DNA from: Thermomonospora catenispora
GTDB lineage: Bacteria; Actinomycetota; Actinomycetes; Streptosporangiales; Streptosporangiaceae
Assembly (NCBI RefSeq): GCF_006363815.1
Contig: NZ_RRYT01000010.1
Location: 1 to 64,000, forward strand
DNA: 64,000 nucleotides
Direction of reading: 5' to 3'
Each line of letters starts with the position of its first letter. Position 1 is the stretch's first letter. Shown piece after piece: positions 23,566 through 35,292 of this stretch. The position numbers and the translations under genes are program-made. A model generated the notes under the pieces. That model ran no database searches. It was not told the DNA's origin and saw nothing but the letters and a program-made list of their open reading frames with translations.

Positions 23566-23655
23566 CTCGCGACCTCCCTGGGGTAAATGGCCTGTTTCGC
23601 CGCCATCCAGCCTAGCTGCCTTGTATGGTCGCCATAGCCGGTCTGCGAGCCTCGA

Positions 23656-23677
23656 AACCCGGGGGAGGCCCCGGGTT
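23656..23677. other. Perfect 9-bp hairpin in the ftsE upstream region
   Basis: AACCCGGGG (23656-23664), loop gagg, CCCCGGGTT (23669-23677). It is in the 268-bp space between the zinc-ribbon gene and ftsE. There is no T-tract. It could be a leader structure or protein site. Confidence 0.5.
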
Positions 23678-23808
23678 CCGGAGCGAGCGGGCCAAACGGT
23701 TGACAGCGACCCTAGACTGCTCGATGGTCAACCGGGCTGCTATCCCGGAGTACCCGCGGCCTGCGTCGCGGGCCCCTCGGGGGTGGCCAAGGAGCCGTTC
23801 CCAGCCTC

Positions 23809-23837
23809 TAGACTGACGAGCCGTGATGCAGCCGTGA
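23809..23837 (+). promoter_or_regulatory. -10 box TAGACT and 4-codon uORF overlapping the ftsE start
   Basis: TAGACT (23809-23814) is followed 8 nt later by GTG 23823, which reads V-M-Q-P and stops at TGA 23835-23837. That stop overlaps the ftsE GTG (23834) as GTGA. ftsE itself has no SD, so re-initiation from the mini-ORF could set FtsE level. Confidence 0.35.
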
Positions 23838-24523
23838 TCCATTTCGACAACGTCACCAAGGTCTACCGGAACCAGAACCGGCCCGCCCTGCAGCACGTGA
23901 ACGTGTCCATCGAAAAGGGCGAATTCCTGTTCTTGGTGGGCCCTTCGGGATCGGGCAAGTCCACCTTCCTGCGCCTGATCCTCAAAGAGGAGCGGCCCAC
24001 CCAGGGGCGGGTGCACGTGGCCGGCAAGGACCTCAGCCGACTCAGCAACTGGCGGGTGCCGCACCTGCGCCGCCGGATCGGTTGCGTGTTCCAGGACTTC
24101 CGGCTGCTGCCCAACAAGAACGTCTTCGAGAACGTCGCGTTCGCGCTCGAGGTCATCGGCAAGCCGCGACGGTTCATCGCCAAGGTGGTGCCCGAGGTCA
24201 TCGACCTGGTGGGCCTGGAGGGCAAGGCGCACCGGATGCCGCATGAGCTGTCCGGTGGCGAGCAGCAGCGAGTCGCCATCGCCCGGGCGTTCGTCAACCG
24301 GCCGATGATCCTGCTCGCCGACGAGCCGACCGGGAACATCGACCCGGCCACCTCGATCGGCATCATGAAGGTGCTGGACCGCATCAACCGGACCGGCACC
24401 ACCGTCGTCATGGCCACGCACGATGCCGCGATCGTCGACGCCTTCCGCAAGCGCGTCGTCGAGCTGGAGGGCGGTCGGGTCGTCCGGGACCAGTCGCGCG
24501 GCGTGTACGGTCAGGCGTACTGA
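23834..24523 (+). CDS. ftsE: Cell division ATP-binding protein FtsE
   Basis: ATPase of the FtsEX complex, which couples division or growth to activation of peptidoglycan hydrolases. In order: [11 protein letters not shown] start, Walker [11 protein letters not shown]-loop [11 protein letters not shown] signature [15 protein letters not shown], Walker [11 protein letters not shown] and the H-loop ATHD. The 229-aa length is standard. GTG 23834 is the usual N terminus. No SD is present, but a four-codon ORF ends in its start codon. ftsX follows after 64 bp. Confidence 0.97.
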
Positions 24524-24587
24524 CACAGCCGGCAACCGAGCCCCGCCCACACTTCCGGCAGGCGAGGTCGACCAAGGACAGCGAAGC

Positions 24588-25493
24588 ATGCGCGCACAGT
24601 TCGTTCTCCAGGAGATCTGGATCGGTCTCCGCCGCAACCTGACGATGACCGTCTCCCTGGTCATCACCGTGGCGATCGCCATGGCGCTGTTGGGCACCGG
24701 CCTGCTGGTCAAGCTTCAGGTCGACAGCTCCAAGAGCTACTGGCACGACCGCATCGAGGTCTCGGTCTTCCTGTGCAACAAGACCAGCACCAACCCCAGC
24801 TGCAACAAGACCGACGCCACCGACCAGCAGAAGGCCGAGATCAAGCGGGATCTCGAGGGCTCGCCGGTGGTGGCCCAGGTCACCTACGAGAGCAAGGAGC
24901 AGGCCTTCGAGCGGTTCAAGGAGACCTTCTCCAGCAACCCGGGGCTGCTGCAGGGGACCAAGGTCGGTGACATCCCCGACTCGTTCCGGGTGCGGCTGAG
25001 CGACCCCGAGCGGGTCGACGAGATCACCAAGCTGCTGGCGAACCGGGCCGGCGTGGACCAGGTGGTCAACGAGAAGGAGATCCTGGACCGGTTCTTCAAG
25101 ATCCTCAACGGCCTGCAGTGGGCGGCCATCATGATCGCGGCCATCCAGGTGATCGCGGCGGTGCTGCTGGTGGCCAACACGGTCCGGCTGTCGGCGTTCA
25201 ACCGGCGGCGGGAGACCGGGATCATGCGCCTGGTGGGCGCCTCCAACCTGTACATCCAGCTCCCGTTCATCCTGGAGGGCGCGATCGCCGGCCTGATCGG
25301 CGGCCTGTTCGCGGCCATCCTGCTGGTCGGCAGCAAGATCGTGCTGATCGACCAGCTGCAGGAGTCGCTGGAGTTCACCAGCCGCCTGTCGTGGACGTCG
25401 GTGACCGGCGTGATCGTGTTCTCCATCTGCGTGGGCGTGCTGCTGTGCGCGGTGGCCTCGTTCCTGAGCCTGCGCCGATACCTGCGGATCTGA
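24588..25493 (+). CDS. ftsX: Cell division protein FtsX
   Basis: Polytopic partner of FtsE. It has an N-terminal cytoplasmic segment and TM1 (MTVSLVITVAIAMALLGTGL). The extracellular domain spans about residues 45-165, with two Cys (FLCNKTSTNPSCNKT) likely to form a disulfide and the region expected to contact a NlpC/P60-type hydrolase such as RipC in mycobacteria. Three further TM helices and the FtsX motif ETGIMRLVGASNLYI follow. It is 301 aa, from ATG 24588. The next gene begins 36 bp after the stop. Confidence 0.96.
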   Translation: MRAQFVLQEIWIGLRRNLTMTVSLVITVAIAMALLGTGLLVKLQVDSSKSYWHDRIEVSVFLCNKTSTNPSCNKTDATDQQKAEIKRDLEGSPVVAQVTYESKEQAFERFKETFSSNPGLLQGTKVGDIPDSFRVRLSDPERVDEITKLLANRAGVDQVVNEKEILDRFFKILNGLQWAAIMIAAIQVIAAVLLVANTVRLSAFNRRRETGIMRLVGASNLYIQLPFILEGAIAGLIGGLFAAILLVGSKIVLIDQLQESLEFTSRLSWTSVTGVIVFSICVGVLLCAVASFLSLRRYLRI

Positions 25494-25529: not shown

Positions 25530-26753
25530 ATGCCCCGGCTGACCGGCCACCTTCCCCGAGCACTGCGGACCGGTCGACCCGTTCGCGCCGCCGCGGTCAC
25601 TGTGGCGTTGCTGATCGCGTACGGCGCGGGGGTGGTGACCGGGACCGAGCCCGAGACCTCCGCCGGAGAGAGCGGTCAGGGCACCCTGGACGAGGCGGCC
25701 CGGCGGATCGCCGACACCTCGGCCATCCCGGTCGGCCGGACCGATCTGCAACGGGCCGCGGTCGAGGGGATGCTGCGCCGCCTGGGCGACCCGTGGGCCC
25801 GGTATTACACCGCGGTCGAGTACGACGACGCCCAGGGACGGTTCAGCGGCCGCTACAGCGGGGTCGGGCTGTGGCTGGGCGGCACCGGGTCGGACGCCGA
25901 CCCGGTCACGGTCGCCAGCGTGCAGCCCGGCTCGGCCGCCGAGCGGGCCGGAGTGCGGGCCGGCGACGTGATCGTCGCGATCGCCGGCCGTCCGGTGGCG
26001 GGCTGGCCCCCGTCCCGGATCGCCGCCGCGCTGCGCGGCCGGCCCGGCACCGCGGTGACGCTGCGGGTGCGCCGCGGCTCGGCCGAGCAGGAGTTCCGGC
26101 TGGTCCGCGCCCCGGTGCAGGGCGAGGAGGTGACCGTCGAGCGCACCGAACGCGACATCCAGGTCATCCGGGTCTCGGCGTTCACCCGGGGGGTGGGGCG
26201 CCGGGTCCGCACGGCCGTGGAGCAGTGGCGGGCGCAGCGCGGCGGCGGGCTGATCCTGGACCTGCGCGGCAACCCGGGCGGCCTGCTGGAGGAGGCGGTG
26301 CAGACCGCCTCGGCGCTGCTGCCGGGGGGCGTGGTGGTCGTCTACGAACGCCGTGGCCGGCCGCCCCAGCGGTTGCCGGTGACCGCCCCCGGCGACGGGC
26401 GCACCCCGCTGGTGGTCCTGGTGGACGCCGGCACCGCCAGCGCCGCCGAGGTGGTCGCCGGATCCCTGCGCGACCGGGATCGCGCGGTGATCGTAGGATC
26501 GCGTACTTATGGGAAGGGATCGGTGCAGGAGCCGGTCCGGTTGGACGACGGTTCGGTGATCGAGCTGACCGTGGGGCGCTACCGCACGCCGAGCGGCCGC
26601 GATCTCGACGGCGTCGGAATCGACCCCGACGTGCCGGTGTCCGCGGACCGCCCCCCGGCGGAGGCCATGCGGCGGGCCACCGGGGTGTTGCGCGGGCTGG
26701 TGGCCGCCGCCCCGACCAAGGGCCTGCAGGACGGGCCCCGCACGAAGGACTGA
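25530..26753 (+). CDS. S41-family C-terminal processing peptidase with PDZ domain
   Basis: Membrane-anchored or secreted Ser/Lys-dyad protease. An N-terminal hydrophobic segment (AAAVTVALLIAYGAGVVTG) is followed by a short helical region, a PDZ domain (about residues 110-195, GVGLWLGG to GTAVTLRV), and the S41 core with LRGNPGGLLEEAV. Catalytic Ser304 lies in DAGTASAAEVVAGS and Lys329 in SRTYGKGSVQEP. The 407-aa length is typical. It is co-directional with ftsEX and smpB, a conserved actinobacterial order. The substrate is unknown; FtsX-linked wall hydrolases are a reasonable guess from context. Confidence 0.93.
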   Translation: MPRLTGHLPRALRTGRPVRAAAVTVALLIAYGAGVVTGTEPETSAGESGQGTLDEAARRIADTSAIPVGRTDLQRAAVEGMLRRLGDPWARYYTAVEYDDAQGRFSGRYSGVGLWLGGTGSDADPVTVASVQPGSAAERAGVRAGDVIVAIAGRPVAGWPPSRIAAALRGRPGTAVTLRVRRGSAEQEFRLVRAPVQGEEVTVERTERDIQVIRVSAFTRGVGRRVRTAVEQWRAQRGGGLILDLRGNPGGLLEEAVQTASALLPGGVVVVYERRGRPPQRLPVTAPGDGRTPLVVLVDAGTASAAEVVAGSLRDRDRAVIVGSRTYGKGSVQEPVRLDDGSVIELTVGRYRTPSGRDLDGVGIDPDVPVSADRPPAEAMRRATGVLRGLVAAAPTKGLQDGPRTKD

Positions 26754-26765
26754 GGCGAGAGACAC

Positions 26766-27254
26766 GTGCCACGTGAGCAAGGCCGCAAGCTGGTGGCCCA
26801 GAACAAGCGGGCCCGCTACGACTACCACATCGAGGACACCTGGGAGGCGGGCCTGGTGCTGACCGGCACCGAGGTCAAGTCGCTGCGCGCCGGACGGGCC
26901 TCGCTGGTCGACGGGTACGCCCGGGTCAAGGACGGCGAGGTCTGGCTGGAGGGCGTGCACATTCCCGAGTACCTGCAGGGCACCTGGACCAACCACGCCC
27001 CCCGGCGGCCCCGCAAGCTGCTGCTGCACAAGCGGGAGATCGGGCGGATCACCGCCAAGACCAAGGAGGCGGGGTTGACGCTCGTCCCGCTGTCGCTGTA
27101 CTTCAAGGACGGCAAGGCCAAGGTCGAGATCGCCTTGGCCCGTGGTAAGAAGACTTACGACAAACGTCAACAGATCGCGAAACGGGAAGCCGCCCGGGAG
27201 ATGGCAAGAGCTCGTTCGGTCCGGCTGCGGGCCCGCAGTGGCGGCAGGGTCTGA
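26766..27254 (+). CDS. smpB: SsrA-binding protein SmpB
   Basis: Binds tmRNA and delivers it to stalled ribosomes for trans-translation. The OB-fold core includes [39 protein letters not shown] and [13 protein letters not shown]. The basic C-terminal tail ([18 protein letters not shown]) inserts into the mRNA channel. It is 162 aa from GTG 26766, 12 bp after the protease stop. Its RNA partner ssrA lies 2.5 kb downstream on the same strand. Confidence 0.98.
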
Positions 27255-27257
27255 GCG

Positions 27258-29219
27258 GTGGGGTTCACGCGCTGGAGAACCGGTGGCCGCGCACGCCGAG
27301 TGGTCTCGGCCGCGGCATGCGGTGTGATGGTCGCTTCGACCGCCACCGGCTGTTTCGCCGAGTCCTCGGCCATGCCCGCCGTGCGGGACTTCCTGGTGGC
27401 GTGGGAGGTCGGCAACTACGAGGCCGCCGCCGCCAGGACGGTGGGCGCCGATCGCCGGACCGTGGTCCAGGCGCTCAGCCAGATGGCCGACCAGCTCGAC
27501 GCGGCGTCCATCAAGCTGGGGCTGGGGCTGAGCGGGCTGCCCGTGCAGGGCGGGCCGGGCTCCGGGCAGGTCGCCGCCGACGGCGGGGACCGGGAGGCCA
27601 AGGCCATCGTCCGAGAGGGCGACCAGGCGTTCGCCCGGTTCTCGGTGGAGATCGACCTGGGGGAGAACGGAGAGCCGTTCTCTTATCCGGGCGAGATGAC
27701 GCTCAAGCGGATCGGCGGTCGCTGGAAGGTCGTGTGGAGCCCGTCGATCATCCACCCGAACCTCCGCGAAGGCCAGCGGCTGGCGGTGGTCACCGAGAAC
27801 CCGCAGCGCAGCGACGTCCTCGACACCCAGGGCCGCTCGCTGATCAGGAAGGTCCAGGCCGACGTGGTCGGGGTGTACCCCGGTCAGCTCCGCGACCCGC
27901 AGCGCACCATCGCCCGGCTGGTGGAGGCCACCGCGACGGGCGACCGCAAGCTGGACGCCGAACGGCTCCTGGGCCGGGTGCGGTCCGCGCCGCCGAGCGA
28001 CTTCCTGCCGCTGGTGATGCTCAGCCGCGCCGAGCATCCGAACGTGGCGATGCGGCTGCGGCAGATCCGGGGACTGCACGTCCGACAGGTGGTCGCGCCG
28101 ATCGCGCCCGCCGCGGCCCCCGAACTCGTCGGCAGCCTCGGCCCCGCCACCGACGACCGGCTGCAGCGGGTCGGCGCCCCTTACCAGCCCGGTGACACCA
28201 TCGGCGTCAACGGCATCCAGCTGCTGCACCAGCGCTGGCTCGCCGGAACGCCGACCGTCAAGGTGGTGGCCGTCGACTCCACCGGACGGCACCGCCAGGT
28301 GCTGGCCGAGTGGCGCGGCGAGCAGCCGCGCCCGGTCCGCACCACGATCGACCTCGCCCACCAGCGGAAGGCTCAGCGCGCCCTGGCCGGGCTGAACGTC
28401 CCCGCCTCGATGGTGGTGGTGCGCTCCAACAACGGCGAGGTGCTCGCGGTCGCCAACCACCGCACCGACGGCGTCAACAAGGCCATGGAGGGCCGCTACC
28501 CGCCGGGGCTGGCGTTCGGCATCGTGTCCGCCGAGGCGCTGCTGCAGAGCGGCATGTCCCAGACGGACAGCACCGAGTGCCCGGCCACCACCGCGGTCGG
28601 CGGGCGCACGTTCGCCAACCCCGGCGGCCGGGGGACGTCCAAGAAGGCCTCCTTCCAGCTCAACTTCGCCCGGTCGTGCGCGACCACGCTGGCCGCCGCC
28701 AGCACCCGTCTGTCCAACGACGCCCTGCTGCGGGAGGCGGGCCGCTTCGGGTTCGGCAAGGACTGGCAGCTGTCGGTCCCGGCGTTCTCCGGCACCGTGC
28801 CCGCGCCCAAGGACGACGCCGGCAAGGCCGCCACCGTGCTCGGTGAGAACGGCGTGCTGGCCAGCCCGCTGGGCATGGCGCTGACCGCCGGGGCGGTGGA
28901 GAGCGGCACCTGGCGTCCTCCGCTGCTGCTGAAGTCCCCCCAGGACAAGCAGACCATCCAGGCGCAGCCGCTCGACCCGGTGCCGGCCGGCGACCTGAAG
29001 CGGCTGATGCAGCGCGCGGTCCACTCCGGCACCGCCCGGGCCGCCCGGGTCCCCGGCTCGGTCCCGGTGCACGGCGTGGTCGCCCAGGTCTCCTACACCG
29101 AGGCGGGCAAGCCGCGGACGGTCTCCTGGTTCGTCGGCTTCCGCGGCGGCATCGCCTTCGCCATCGCCGTCGAGGGCAAGGTCAACGCCGCGACGATCGC
29201 CGCCAAGTACCTCAGCTAG
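27258..29219 (+). CDS. MecA_N/penicillin-binding transpeptidase-like lipoprotein lacking active-site motifs
   Basis: 653-aa homologue of PBP2a-type class B transpeptidases: signal with lipobox-like TATGC, an NTF2-like MecA_N domain (about 35-160), a dimerisation/linker domain and a C-terminal transpeptidase domain (about 375-650). By eye alignment all three catalytic motifs are gone. SxxK (usually YPPGSTFK) is L418-A-F-G421. SxN (usually SCNT) is S473-C-A475. KTG (usually GKTGT) is H605-G-V. The fold landmarks around them (GRYPPG, ENGVLASPLGMALTAGAV, VSWFVGF) are kept, so this looks like a pseudo-enzyme rather than decay. There is no frameshift. It starts 3 bp after smpB and ends near a strong terminator. 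A regulatory or scaffold role in wall synthesis, or beta-lactam sensing without acylation, would be inference. Confidence 0.85.
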   Translation: MGFTRWRTGGRARRVVSAAACGVMVASTATGCFAESSAMPAVRDFLVAWEVGNYEAAAARTVGADRRTVVQALSQMADQLDAASIKLGLGLSGLPVQGGPGSGQVAADGGDREAKAIVREGDQAFARFSVEIDLGENGEPFSYPGEMTLKRIGGRWKVVWSPSIIHPNLREGQRLAVVTENPQRSDVLDTQGRSLIRKVQADVVGVYPGQLRDPQRTIARLVEATATGDRKLDAERLLGRVRSAPPSDFLPLVMLSRAEHPNVAMRLRQIRGLHVRQVVAPIAPAAAPELVGSLGPATDDRLQRVGAPYQPGDTIGVNGIQLLHQRWLAGTPTVKVVAVDSTGRHRQVLAEWRGEQPRPVRTTIDLAHQRKAQRALAGLNVPASMVVVRSNNGEVLAVANHRTDGVNKAMEGRYPPGLAFGIVSAEALLQSGMSQTDSTECPATTAVGGRTFANPGGRGTSKKASFQLNFARSCATTLAAASTRLSNDALLREAGRFGFGKDWQLSVPAFSGTVPAPKDDAGKAATVLGENGVLASPLGMALTAGAVESGTWRPPLLLKSPQDKQTIQAQPLDPVPAGDLKRLMQRAVHSGTARAARVPGSVPVHGVVAQVSYTEAGKPRTVSWFVGFRGGIAFAIAVEGKVNAATIAAKYLS

Positions 29220-29760: not shown

Positions 29761-30129
29761 GGGGGTGACCGGCTTCGACTTCGGTCGATGTCGTCAGGGG
29801 AAGCGGGCCGAGGGCTGCGGTTGCGACCTCGTAAATCCCGTGACCGCGAACAATAACTGCCAACAAGTCGCAGTCCGAGTTCGCTCTCGCCGCCTGAGCG
29901 AGTAGCGACTCTGTCAGCCCGGGAGCGTCTCCGGCCCGGGATCTGGCATCGTGAGGAGACTCCACCTGCCCACCCGGTCGCGGGGTGAGCAGGGACAAGC
30001 GCACAGCGACTGGGCCTGTCGGTGACTTGCCTGCGTGAGCACCGGGGCCGAGAAAACGCCTAGCAGGCTGCGCCCGGAGAAGCCCTGGCGCATGACCGAA
30101 GGACGCGGGTTCGAATCCCGCCACCTCCA
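29761..30129 (+). ncRNA. ssrA: tmRNA (ssrA), tag peptide ANKSQSEFALAA
   Basis: Rescues ribosomes stalled on broken mRNA together with SmpB. The 5' end GGGGGUG pairs with CACCUCC (30122-30128) to form the acceptor stem with discriminator A30129. The T arm (gggttcgaatccc) sits just before it, and the conserved 5' part reads gaccggcttcgac. The tag ORF runs from resume codon GCC 29859 to TGA 29895-29897 and encodes ANKSQSEFALAA, ending in the canonical ALAA degron. CCA is not encoded. Pseudoknot boundaries were not assigned. Confidence 0.96.
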
Positions 30130-30465
30130 CTGCTCTCGAATGCCGGCACGGCGCCCGCCGTGCCGGCATTCGTGTTCTTCCGCCCCGGACCTGCCCGGCG
30201 CGGGCACGAGGGAGGCGACCTCGGGCTCTGAGGCGAGGGGAGGCGAGCGGAAGTCGGGCGGCGACCCGAGCGACGGCCGCCGTGGGGCGTGACTGGGACC
30301 CGTGAGGCGGGGGAGGGGCGATGCGGACGCGAGGGCCGGTCGGCGCGAGTGGATCCGGCGGCGCGCTCCCTGCGTCGAACGGCCGTGCGAAACGCCCTGA
30401 CCCACGACGTCACGGACCGCGACGATGCGAGGACGACACGGGCGAGGGGGAGAGCGAGGGGGAGG
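30130..30465. other. Intergenic region after ssrA
   Basis: Contains the ssrA terminator at its left end. The remaining 290 bases show no gene or signal I can support, apart from purine-rich sequence close to the next start. Confidence 0.5.
30138..30180 (+). terminator. ssrA rho-independent terminator
   Basis: Perfect 14-bp stem (30138-30151 with 30158-30171), 6-nt loop, followed by gtgttcttc. Confidence 0.85.
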
Positions 30466-33108: not shown

Positions 33109-35292
33109 ATGGCGATCGGGCTGACCGAGGAACACGAGGCACTGGCCGCGTCGGTGCGCGGCCTGGTGGAACGGCACATCACCGCGCAGACGGTGCGCGC
33201 GGAGGTGGAGTCCCCACGGCGCGAGGGACGTCCCCCCTTCTGGGAGGCCCTGGCGGGGCAGGGGCTGCTCGGCCTCCATCTGCCGGAGGAGCACGGCGGC
33301 CAGGGCTTCGGCCTGGTCGAACAGGCCGTCGCCCTGGAGGAGCTGGGCCGGGCGCTGGCCCCCGGCCCGTACGTCCCGACCGTGCTGGCCTCCGCCGCCA
33401 TCGCCGCGTACGGCGCCGACGAGGCCCGCGCCGACCTGCTGCCGTCCCTGGCCGACGGGTCGGCGACGGCGGCGGTGGCGCTGCGGGGGGAGTTCACCGC
33501 GGACGGCTCCCGCATCCGGGGATCGGCCGAGACGGTGCTCGGCGCCCCGCTGGCGGACCTGCTCCTCCTGCCGCTGGGCGAGGACGAATGGGCGGTGGTG
33601 GACGCCGCCGACGCCGTGATCGAGGCCGGGGACTCCCTCGACCTGACCCGCCCGGTCGGGAGCGTCCGGGTGTCGGACGCGACCGTCCCGCTGGAGCGGA
33701 TCCTGCACGGACCGATCCGGGACCTCGCCGTCGTGGTGCTGGGCGCGGAGGCGTGCGGCCTCGCCGGGCGGGCCACCGAGGACGCCACCGCCTACGCCAA
33801 GCTCCGCGAGCAGTTCGGCCGCCCCATCGGGCAGTTCCAGGGCGTCAAGCACAAGATCGCCCGGATGCTGATCGCCACCGAACGGGCCCGGGCCGCCGTC
33901 TGGGACGCCGCCCGCGCGATCGACGCCGGCGAGCGGGCCGACCAGCGCGGGTACGCGATCGGCGTGGCCGGGGCGCTGGCCGGGGACGCGGCCGTGACCT
34001 GCGCCCAGGACAACATCCAGGTCCACGGCGGCATCGGCTACACCTTCGAGCACGACGCCCACCTGATCTACCGGCGGGCGCTGACGCTGCGCGCACTGAC
34101 CGGCCGCGCCTCCGCCCACCACGCCCGCGTGGCGCGGCTGGCGCTGGACGGGCTCCGCCGCCCCATCGAGGTCGACCTGCCCGAGGAGGCCGCCCCGCTG
34201 CGCGCGCGGATCCGGAAAGAGGTCGCCGAACTGGCCGAGATGGACCCGCTCACCCAGCGGGCGGCGATGGCCGAGGGCGGCTGGGTCACCCCGCACCTGC
34301 CCAGGCCGTGGGGCCGGGACGCCGGACCGCTGGAGCAGATCGTCATCCAGCAGGAGCTGCGGCGCGCCGGCGTCCGCCCGGTGCCGCTGATGATCGCCGC
34401 CTGGGTGGTGCCGTCGCTGGTCCAATACGGCACCCCCGAGCAGCAGGAGCGGTTCCTGCCGCCGACGCTGCGCGGCGAGATCCTGTGGTGCCAGCTGTTC
34501 AGCGAGCCCGGCGCCGGCTCCGACCTGGCGAGCCTGACCACCCGGGCGGAGAAGGTCGAGGGCGGCTGGCGGATCACCGGCCAGAAGATCTGGAACTCGC
34601 TGGCCCGGGAGGCCCAGTGGGGCATCTGCCTGGCCCGCACCGATCCCGACGCCCCCAAGCACGAGGGCATCACCTATTTCCTGGTCGACATGGCCTCCGA
34701 GGGCATCGAGGTCCGTCCGCTGCGCGAGTGCACCGGCGAGGCGGTGTTCAACGAGGTCTTCCTCGACGGGGTGTTCGTGCCCGATGAGCTGGTGGTGGGG
34801 CCGGTCAACCAGGGCTGGAAGGTGGCCCGCAACACGCTGGCCAACGAGCGGGTCGGGCTGACCAGCTCCTTCCAGCTCGGCGCGAGCCTGCCCAAGCTGG
34901 TCGGCCTGATCAGGGAGCTGGAGCTGGGCGACGACCCGGTGGTGCTGGACGGCCTGGGCCGGCTGGCCGCCGACGAGCACGCCTACCTGCTGCTGGGGCT
35001 GCGCGCCACGCTCCGGCAGCTGTCGGGCACCGACCCCGGCGCCACCGCCAACGTCCGCAAGCTGGTGGCGATGGAGCACGGCCAGCGGGTCACCGAGTAC
35101 GGCTTCACCCTCCTCGGCGAGGAGGGCGCGCTGACCGGCGGCCGCAAGTCCGAGCTGCGCCGCCGGTGGACGTTCTGGCTGCTGGCGTCGCGGGCGATGA
35201 CGATCGGCGGCGGCACCACCGAGGTCAACCTGAACGTCATCGGCGAGCGCATCCTCGGCCTGCCCCGCGACCCGGAGCCGCCCCGCCGCTGA
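33109..35292 (+). CDS. Tandem-domain acyl-CoA dehydrogenase (FadE type)
   Basis: 727 aa comprising two acyl-CoA dehydrogenase domains in one chain. Domain 1 (about 1-350) ends with LREQFGRPIGQFQGVKHKIA and QVHGGIGYTFEHDAHLIYRR. Domain 2 (about 370-727) carries CQLFSEPGAGSDLASLTTRA, KIWNSLAREAQWGICLARTD and TIGGGTTEVNLNVIGERILG. Length and layout match mycobacterial FadE6/FadE22/FadE34 proteins, where fused domains replace the alpha2beta2 steroid or branched-chain dehydrogenases. The ATG follows AAGGTGG. The substrate is probably a branched or steroid side-chain acyl-CoA; this is inference from architecture. Confidence 0.9.
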   Translation: MAIGLTEEHEALAASVRGLVERHITAQTVRAEVESPRREGRPPFWEALAGQGLLGLHLPEEHGGQGFGLVEQAVALEELGRALAPGPYVPTVLASAAIAAYGADEARADLLPSLADGSATAAVALRGEFTADGSRIRGSAETVLGAPLADLLLLPLGEDEWAVVDAADAVIEAGDSLDLTRPVGSVRVSDATVPLERILHGPIRDLAVVVLGAEACGLAGRATEDATAYAKLREQFGRPIGQFQGVKHKIARMLIATERARAAVWDAARAIDAGERADQRGYAIGVAGALAGDAAVTCAQDNIQVHGGIGYTFEHDAHLIYRRALTLRALTGRASAHHARVARLALDGLRRPIEVDLPEEAAPLRARIRKEVAELAEMDPLTQRAAMAEGGWVTPHLPRPWGRDAGPLEQIVIQQELRRAGVRPVPLMIAAWVVPSLVQYGTPEQQERFLPPTLRGEILWCQLFSEPGAGSDLASLTTRAEKVEGGWRITGQKIWNSLAREAQWGICLARTDPDAPKHEGITYFLVDMASEGIEVRPLRECTGEAVFNEVFLDGVFVPDELVVGPVNQGWKVARNTLANERVGLTSSFQLGASLPKLVGLIRELELGDDPVVLDGLGRLAADEHAYLLLGLRATLRQLSGTDPGATANVRKLVAMEHGQRVTEYGFTLLGEEGALTGGRKSELRRRWTFWLLASRAMTIGGGTTEVNLNVIGERILGLPRDPEPPRR

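Follow-up and report, generated by a model that had tools for sequence, protein, structure and literature searches.

The genome of Thermomonospora catenispora encodes, directly downstream of smpB, a penicillin-binding protein that has lost the catalytic residues of a transpeptidase and is probably an old, selected, non-catalytic binding protein derived from such an enzyme. The gene lies within the window, the whole stretch of 64,000 nucleotides that was analysed (positions 1 to 64,000 of the forward strand of contig NZ_RRYT01000010.1). Penicillin-binding proteins have been studied as enzymes and as drug targets. If catalysis was lost a single time and the protein was then kept by selection over dozens of genera, the body of a penicillin-binding protein would have a job other than cross-linking, and the active and inactive orthologues found at one locus would allow that non-catalytic job to be separated from catalysis. 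Annotation by Pfam domains alone would call this protein a transpeptidase and a likely beta-lactam target despite its missing catalytic residues. The gene, its parts and its neighbours are as follows:

23621-24523, + strand: ftsE-like ATPase (open reading frame as listed, true start probably internal; assigned by ABC_tran domain and position)
24423-25493, + strand: ftsX (open reading frame as listed, true start probably internal; assigned by reading frame, Pfam and conservation)
25530-26753, + strand: S41/PDZ protease, between ftsX and smpB (Pfam)
26766-27254, + strand: smpB, the conserved upstream neighbour (SmpB, PF01668, E 7.6e-63)
27258-29219, + strand: pseudo-transpeptidase gene, 653 amino acids, GTG start (reading frame, Pfam domains, motif alignment)
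27342-27353, + strand: lipobox-like ATGC, residues 29-32, a putative lipoprotein anchor past a hydrophobic stretch (crude pattern, hydropathy)
27369-27776, + strand: MecA_N (NTF2-like) domain, residues 38-173 (Pfam, 38.1 bits against a cut-off of 22)
27795-28295, + strand: PBP_dimer domain, residues 180-346 (Pfam, 42.5 against a cut-off of 24.4)
28407-29171, + strand: Transpeptidase domain, residues 384-638, without its catalytic motifs (Pfam, 68.5 against a cut-off of 22.1)
28509-28520, + strand: former SxxK, now L-A-F-G, residues 418-421 (aligned to STFK of active orthologues)
28674-28682, + strand: former SxN, now S-C-A, residues 473-475 (aligned to SCN of active orthologues)
29076-29084, + strand: former KTG, now V-V-A, residues 607-609 (alignment to active orthologues and profile alignment)
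29761-30130, + strand: ssrA (tmRNA), a frequent downstream neighbour (tmRNA call, conservation across loci)

The GTG start of the 653-residue reading frame stands 3 nucleotides past the smpB stop codon, and the GC content of the frame by codon position, 0.72/0.53/0.95, is what a real gene would show in DNA of 73 percent GC. All three domains score above the Pfam cut-offs, which makes the product by homology a class B penicillin-binding protein of the MecA_N type; a preliminary description had proposed a transpeptidase homologue with an intact frame next to smpB. The same three domains are matched in every one of the 43 smpB-locus proteins (39 inactive and 4 active rows) that make up profile A1. 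An AF2 structure prediction from a three-row alignment gave a pLDDT of 34, and the PBP-like fold proposed for the protein rests on profile homology.

The protein fails each of the three motif tests for an active transpeptidase (SxxK, SxN and KTG). The preliminary description placed L-A-F-G at 418-421 in place of SxxK, and alignment with the STFK of active orthologues puts it at the same position. Its reading of S-C-A at 473-475 is right as to position and the loss of the asparagine, but the motif is not wholly gone, for Ser473 is kept. The third motif is indeed lost, but the register given for it, H-G-V at 605-607 (29070-29078), was two residues early and is rejected: the active orthologue L039 reads V-Y-G-K-T-G, so that His605 and Gly606 of the window protein align to the two residues preceding KTG, and profile alignment to solved chains of the Enterococcus PBP5 type likewise equates KTG with Val607-Val608-Ala609. 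By sequence, then, the window protein has lost the catalytic residues and kept the fold-defining domains, as a pseudoenzyme does, and from the lost residues it would be predicted to form no acyl-enzyme with beta-lactams.

Relatives were read at residue level in 189 loci, which yielded 175 distinct proteins after near-identical copies (those with the same last 200 residues) were dropped. Among the 134 whose genes follow smpB in the same orientation, 129 are missing the SxxK lysine (Lys421); these inactive proteins span 69 genus labels, 127 coming from the window's own family (f1, which we take to be the GTDB family Streptosporangiaceae), one from a second family (f2) and one from Actinomadura viridilutea. 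The KTG lysine (Lys607) is absent from all 129 and the SxN asparagine (Asn475) from all except two. Ser418 survives in 12 and Ser473 in 26, so weak residual chemistry in some members, read from these serines, is not strictly excluded. Position 421 is now occupied by Ser (71), Thr (40), Gly (17) or Gln (1), and position 607 by Val (61), Gln (48), Ile (16) or Leu (4); position 605 is Tyr or His in 109. Two cysteines, Cys474 (174 of the 174 proteins tallied) and Cys441 (173), are probably conserved for structure.

The other five smpB-adjacent proteins (L016, L026, L039, L044 and L170) keep every motif residue as STFK/SCN/KTG; three belong to family f3 and one each to f9 and f37, and none to the window's family. 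Lys421 is present in 40 of the 41 proteins for which smpB was not seen alongside. The exception, L167, belongs to the window's family and is truncated by the beginning of a contig; its smpB and the 5' part of the gene lie at the edge of another contig. The reading in the family covers 127 distinct smpB-adjacent proteins plus L167, from part of the genomes with hits among the roughly 193 searched, and the lysine is lost in 128/128 of the locus proteins read. Outside f1, f2 and f3 the SxxK lysine is present in 33 of 33 proteins, 2 of them beside smpB and 31 without smpB in the stretch examined. A separate class B paralogue in three genomes of family f15 (L059, L176 and L181, from G052, G230 and G262, respectively) forms a half-degenerate line, in which Thr replaces the SxxK serine and the KTG lysine (TAFK, and TTG or TNG) and SCN is intact; the three count among the 40 Lys421-bearing proteins not seen beside smpB.

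Profile A1 finds the gene almost throughout the family, matching 148 of 150 genomes drawn from it at E<=1e-120. The two misses are G083, whose available sequence breaks off shortly after the smpB-adjacent gene begins, and G130, in which smpB was not found, and both absences are probably assembly breaks. Of 121 genomes drawn from the order, most of them from this family, 120 matched at E<=1e-100, and the one without a match was once more G083. In a draw from the class, 61 of 197 genomes reached E<=1e-110, including 15 from the window's family. The gene is carried by the same-genus genome G001, and a Thermomonospora echinospora record has the same match. In a first search, a match of some kind was found in 60/60 relatives, with the best match beside smpB in 30/30 of the genomes for which that match came with its locus; no relative was found in the viral contigs scanned.

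A quick unrooted tree was built with the motif columns removed from 122 of the 175 proteins, those left by filtering at 72 percent identity; the five active smpB-adjacent proteins were retained by hand, and rows of fewer than 450 aligned residues were left out. A single branch (SH-aLRT 100) separates all 82 inactive rows from the rest. The motif state on this tree can be explained by one change, a value as low as which was reached in 0 of 500 label shuffles, and repeated loss was therefore set aside. Loss of the catalytic residues seems to have happened a single time, in the common ancestor of f1 and f2 (the latter represented by one genome); the change is read as a loss and not a gain because intact proteins occur in other families and because of what is known of penicillin-binding proteins.

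Selection on the gene was estimated within the window's genus (five genomes) with pairwise codon models (our own GY94/F3x4 code). Over the 10 pairs dN/dS is 0.053-0.116, and the likelihood-ratio statistic against dN/dS = 1 is at least 153; dS exceeds 1.5, near saturation, in 7 of these pairs, and the closest pair (dS 0.61) gives a dN/dS of 0.099. Over four pairs each in the same genus, the corresponding ranges are 0.047-0.218 for an active MecA_N paralogue and 0.041-0.184 for smpB. Long-term purifying selection after the loss is thus indicated by the distribution and the tree and, within the genus, by dN/dS.

The distribution of constraint over the protein differs between inactive and active members. 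Branch lengths were fitted for each domain on a fixed tree, and their sums were divided by that of the dimer domain: the ratio for the transpeptidase domain is 0.95 in the inactive clade versus 0.53 in active proteins (about 1.8 times faster), and that for the MecA_N domain 0.80 versus 1.16 (about 1.45 times slower). Mann-Whitney tests on the ratios of terminal branches, values that may be influenced by the quality of the alignment, gave p values of 7e-7 and 4e-6, respectively. The six nearest active proteins form 15 pairs, and in every one of these the identity is higher in the transpeptidase domain, and lower or equal in MecA_N, than in inactive pairs matched for dimer-domain identity. Constraint has thus shifted from the transpeptidase domain towards the N-terminal half. 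By position, conservation has been lost in the inactive clade at 418, 475 and the post-KTG residues 610 and 612, among others such as 641 and 646, and gained chiefly within MecA_N and near residues 174-177 and 312-314. Residues 418, 473 and 475 now change about as often as the median transpeptidase column, and 421 and 607 change less often than most (24th and 21st percentiles). Thr421 occurs with Gln607 in 35 of 82 rows, but this is not significant once the tree is considered; no coupling is claimed, because there are five independent pairs on starred branches, with residue 607 differing in one.

These results bear on the possibility that the gene is a plain pseudogene in recent decay, its function lost and its sequence drifting. 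Lost catalytic residues would fit such drift, as would a frame break in G186 (L201/L202), the one break among the four genomes checked for broken genes, which is near model position 376 and close to a contig end and may be an assembly error or real damage. Against it, the gene is matched almost throughout the family, the listed copies being open over nearly the whole profile but for a few partial ones such as G067 and G131; it is conserved over the 69 genus labels; there are invariant residues outside the old motifs; and dN/dS in the genus lies between 0.05 and 0.12. On the grounds of conservation and dN/dS, a pseudogene was rejected, and it can be considered highly improbable. The preliminary description had called for a comparison of orthologues beside smpB and had named intact orthologues, and a dN/dS near 1, as signs of recent decay. 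The motif loss proved to be shared by all the orthologues read in the window's family; intact orthologues do occur beside smpB, yet solely outside that family and across a single branch of the tree; and the dN/dS values speak against decay. Its proposal of a functional pseudo-enzyme under selection is accordingly well supported by sequence, since the loss is shared by the family, dN/dS is low in the genus and the intact orthologues lie across one branch.

Two other explanations accept that the protein is functional. The pocket may have been rebuilt, with Ser or Thr at 421 and Tyr or His at 605, into an enzyme that catalyses something else, as the restriction of residue 421 to Ser, Thr or Gly in 128 of the 129 inactive proteins, the frequency of Tyr or His at 605 and the below-average variability of 421 and 607 might suggest. 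This is very unlikely, given that the three motifs surveyed within the pocket hold no invariant polar residue new to the clade, that 418, 473 and 475 change at about the median rate, and that the transpeptidase domain is relaxed overall. Alternatively, the protein could be a putative non-covalent sensor of wall fragments or beta-lactams, which would bind its ligand in the MecA_N/pedestal half and signal to a partner. PBP2a, with its allosteric site, is a model for ligand binding in that half, PBP2a and PBP5-type proteins are among the solved relatives, and the tightened MecA_N domain fits as well; no sensor kinase or regulator is found among the named neighbour genes in the window, and a sensor is unlikely. 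The strongest mechanistic clue is the shift of constraint to the MecA_N half, which makes a membrane-tethered, non-catalytic binder of the wall machinery the most likely kind of protein.

Tethering at the outer face of the membrane is probable because lipoboxes and hydrophobic N-terminal segments are common in the clade. With a crude pattern, a lipobox following a hydrophobic stretch was found in 102 of the 129 inactive smpB-adjacent proteins (27 being without one) and in all five active ones, and 124 of the 129 have a strongly hydrophobic N-terminal segment. One of the 27 is L005; the examples inspected have a transmembrane-like segment at the N-terminus instead of the lipobox, and the anchor therefore seems exchangeable.

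The gene order on the + strand is ftsE-like ABC ATPase, ftsX, S41/PDZ protease, smpB, pseudo-transpeptidase gene, ssrA and a CysZ/EI24 protein gene. Upstream of the inactive genes, ftsX is present in 117 of 129 loci and at least one of ftsX and the S41 protease in 127. Downstream, ssrA lies on the same strand in 116 (4 of the 13 loci without it have less than 700 bases of downstream sequence). The start codon is at most 30 nucleotides from the smpB stop in 123 of 129, a count biased towards small gaps since the nearest start was picked. Each of the five active smpB-adjacent loci also has ftsX or the protease upstream, and one has ssrA; the ftsX-smpB order thus predates the inactivation, and gene order consequently says little about the partner. 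The genome otherwise has ordinary cross-linking enzymes, since SxxK and KTG are intact in all eight of its other transpeptidase-domain proteins, which include a MecA_N-type paralogue, and SxN is present in seven of the eight. Further downstream in the window, a single open reading frame of 727 amino acids (33109-35292) looks, by eye, like a head-to-tail fusion of what are presumably two acyl-CoA dehydrogenase units. Inside this acyl-CoA-dehydrogenase-like frame ARAGORN calls a tRNA of unknown type (33242-33335), which is probably a false positive.

The history of the binding protein may be pictured as follows. An active MecA_N-type class B penicillin-binding protein encoded behind ftsX-smpB would have lost its catalytic apparatus once, in the ancestor of f1 and f2, and would have been kept since then as a pseudoenzyme. 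The present protein would be made together with FtsX and SmpB, be held on the outside of the membrane by either a lipid or a transmembrane helix, and fold like a penicillin-binding protein without making an acyl-enzyme, its MecA_N/pedestal half binding a partner so that it may regulate wall synthesis or serve as a scaffold for it. That this partner belongs to the division machinery (FtsEX or a septal SEDS/bPBP pair) is a tentative guess from gene order. The more specific possibility that a MecA-type transpeptidase has turned into a dedicated division factor, encoded in an ftsEX-smpB operon, anchored in the membrane and linking, through its MecA_N binding head, FtsEX-controlled cleavage to septal synthesis, is rather unlikely.

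The closest known systems include the MecA_N-type class B penicillin-binding proteins (Enterococcus PBP5 and Staphylococcus PBP2a/MecA; PDB 6g0k, 1vqq and others), which have the same three domains in the same order and significant profile matches to the window protein over nearly its full length; they carry the catalytic motifs, whereas the window clade is without both catalytic lysines and the SxN asparagine. The active smpB-locus orthologues have the same place as well as the same domains, and differ by their intact motifs. Among the matches listed from the open-access literature, to which subscription papers are mostly external, no title describes the inactive clade, and an earlier remark on it is possible. 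Class A penicillin-binding proteins of Streptomyces without SxxK (13 listed exceptions among 100 sequences) are reported to have SxN and KTG mostly conserved, and the author argues that they are still able to act as penicillin-binding proteins (Ogawara 2016, PMC6273383). As presented there, those cases are of class A, are scattered over species and mostly keep SxN and KTG, unlike the window clade.

Wall hydrolases provide another comparison, although the LytM fold is unrelated to the PBP fold. EnvC and DipM are degenerate LytM proteins, non-catalytic relatives of wall hydrolases that have been kept as regulators, and EnvC, which works with FtsEX, is a precedent for a non-catalytic wall protein working with that complex (PMC11627006, PMC10336132). 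EnvC and DipM derive from a hydrolase and the window clade from a transpeptidase, and EnvC has FtsEX as its partner, whereas for the window protein this link is a guess. If the protein were a division factor, it would be the pseudo-transpeptidase counterpart of the EnvC-type pseudo-hydrolases.
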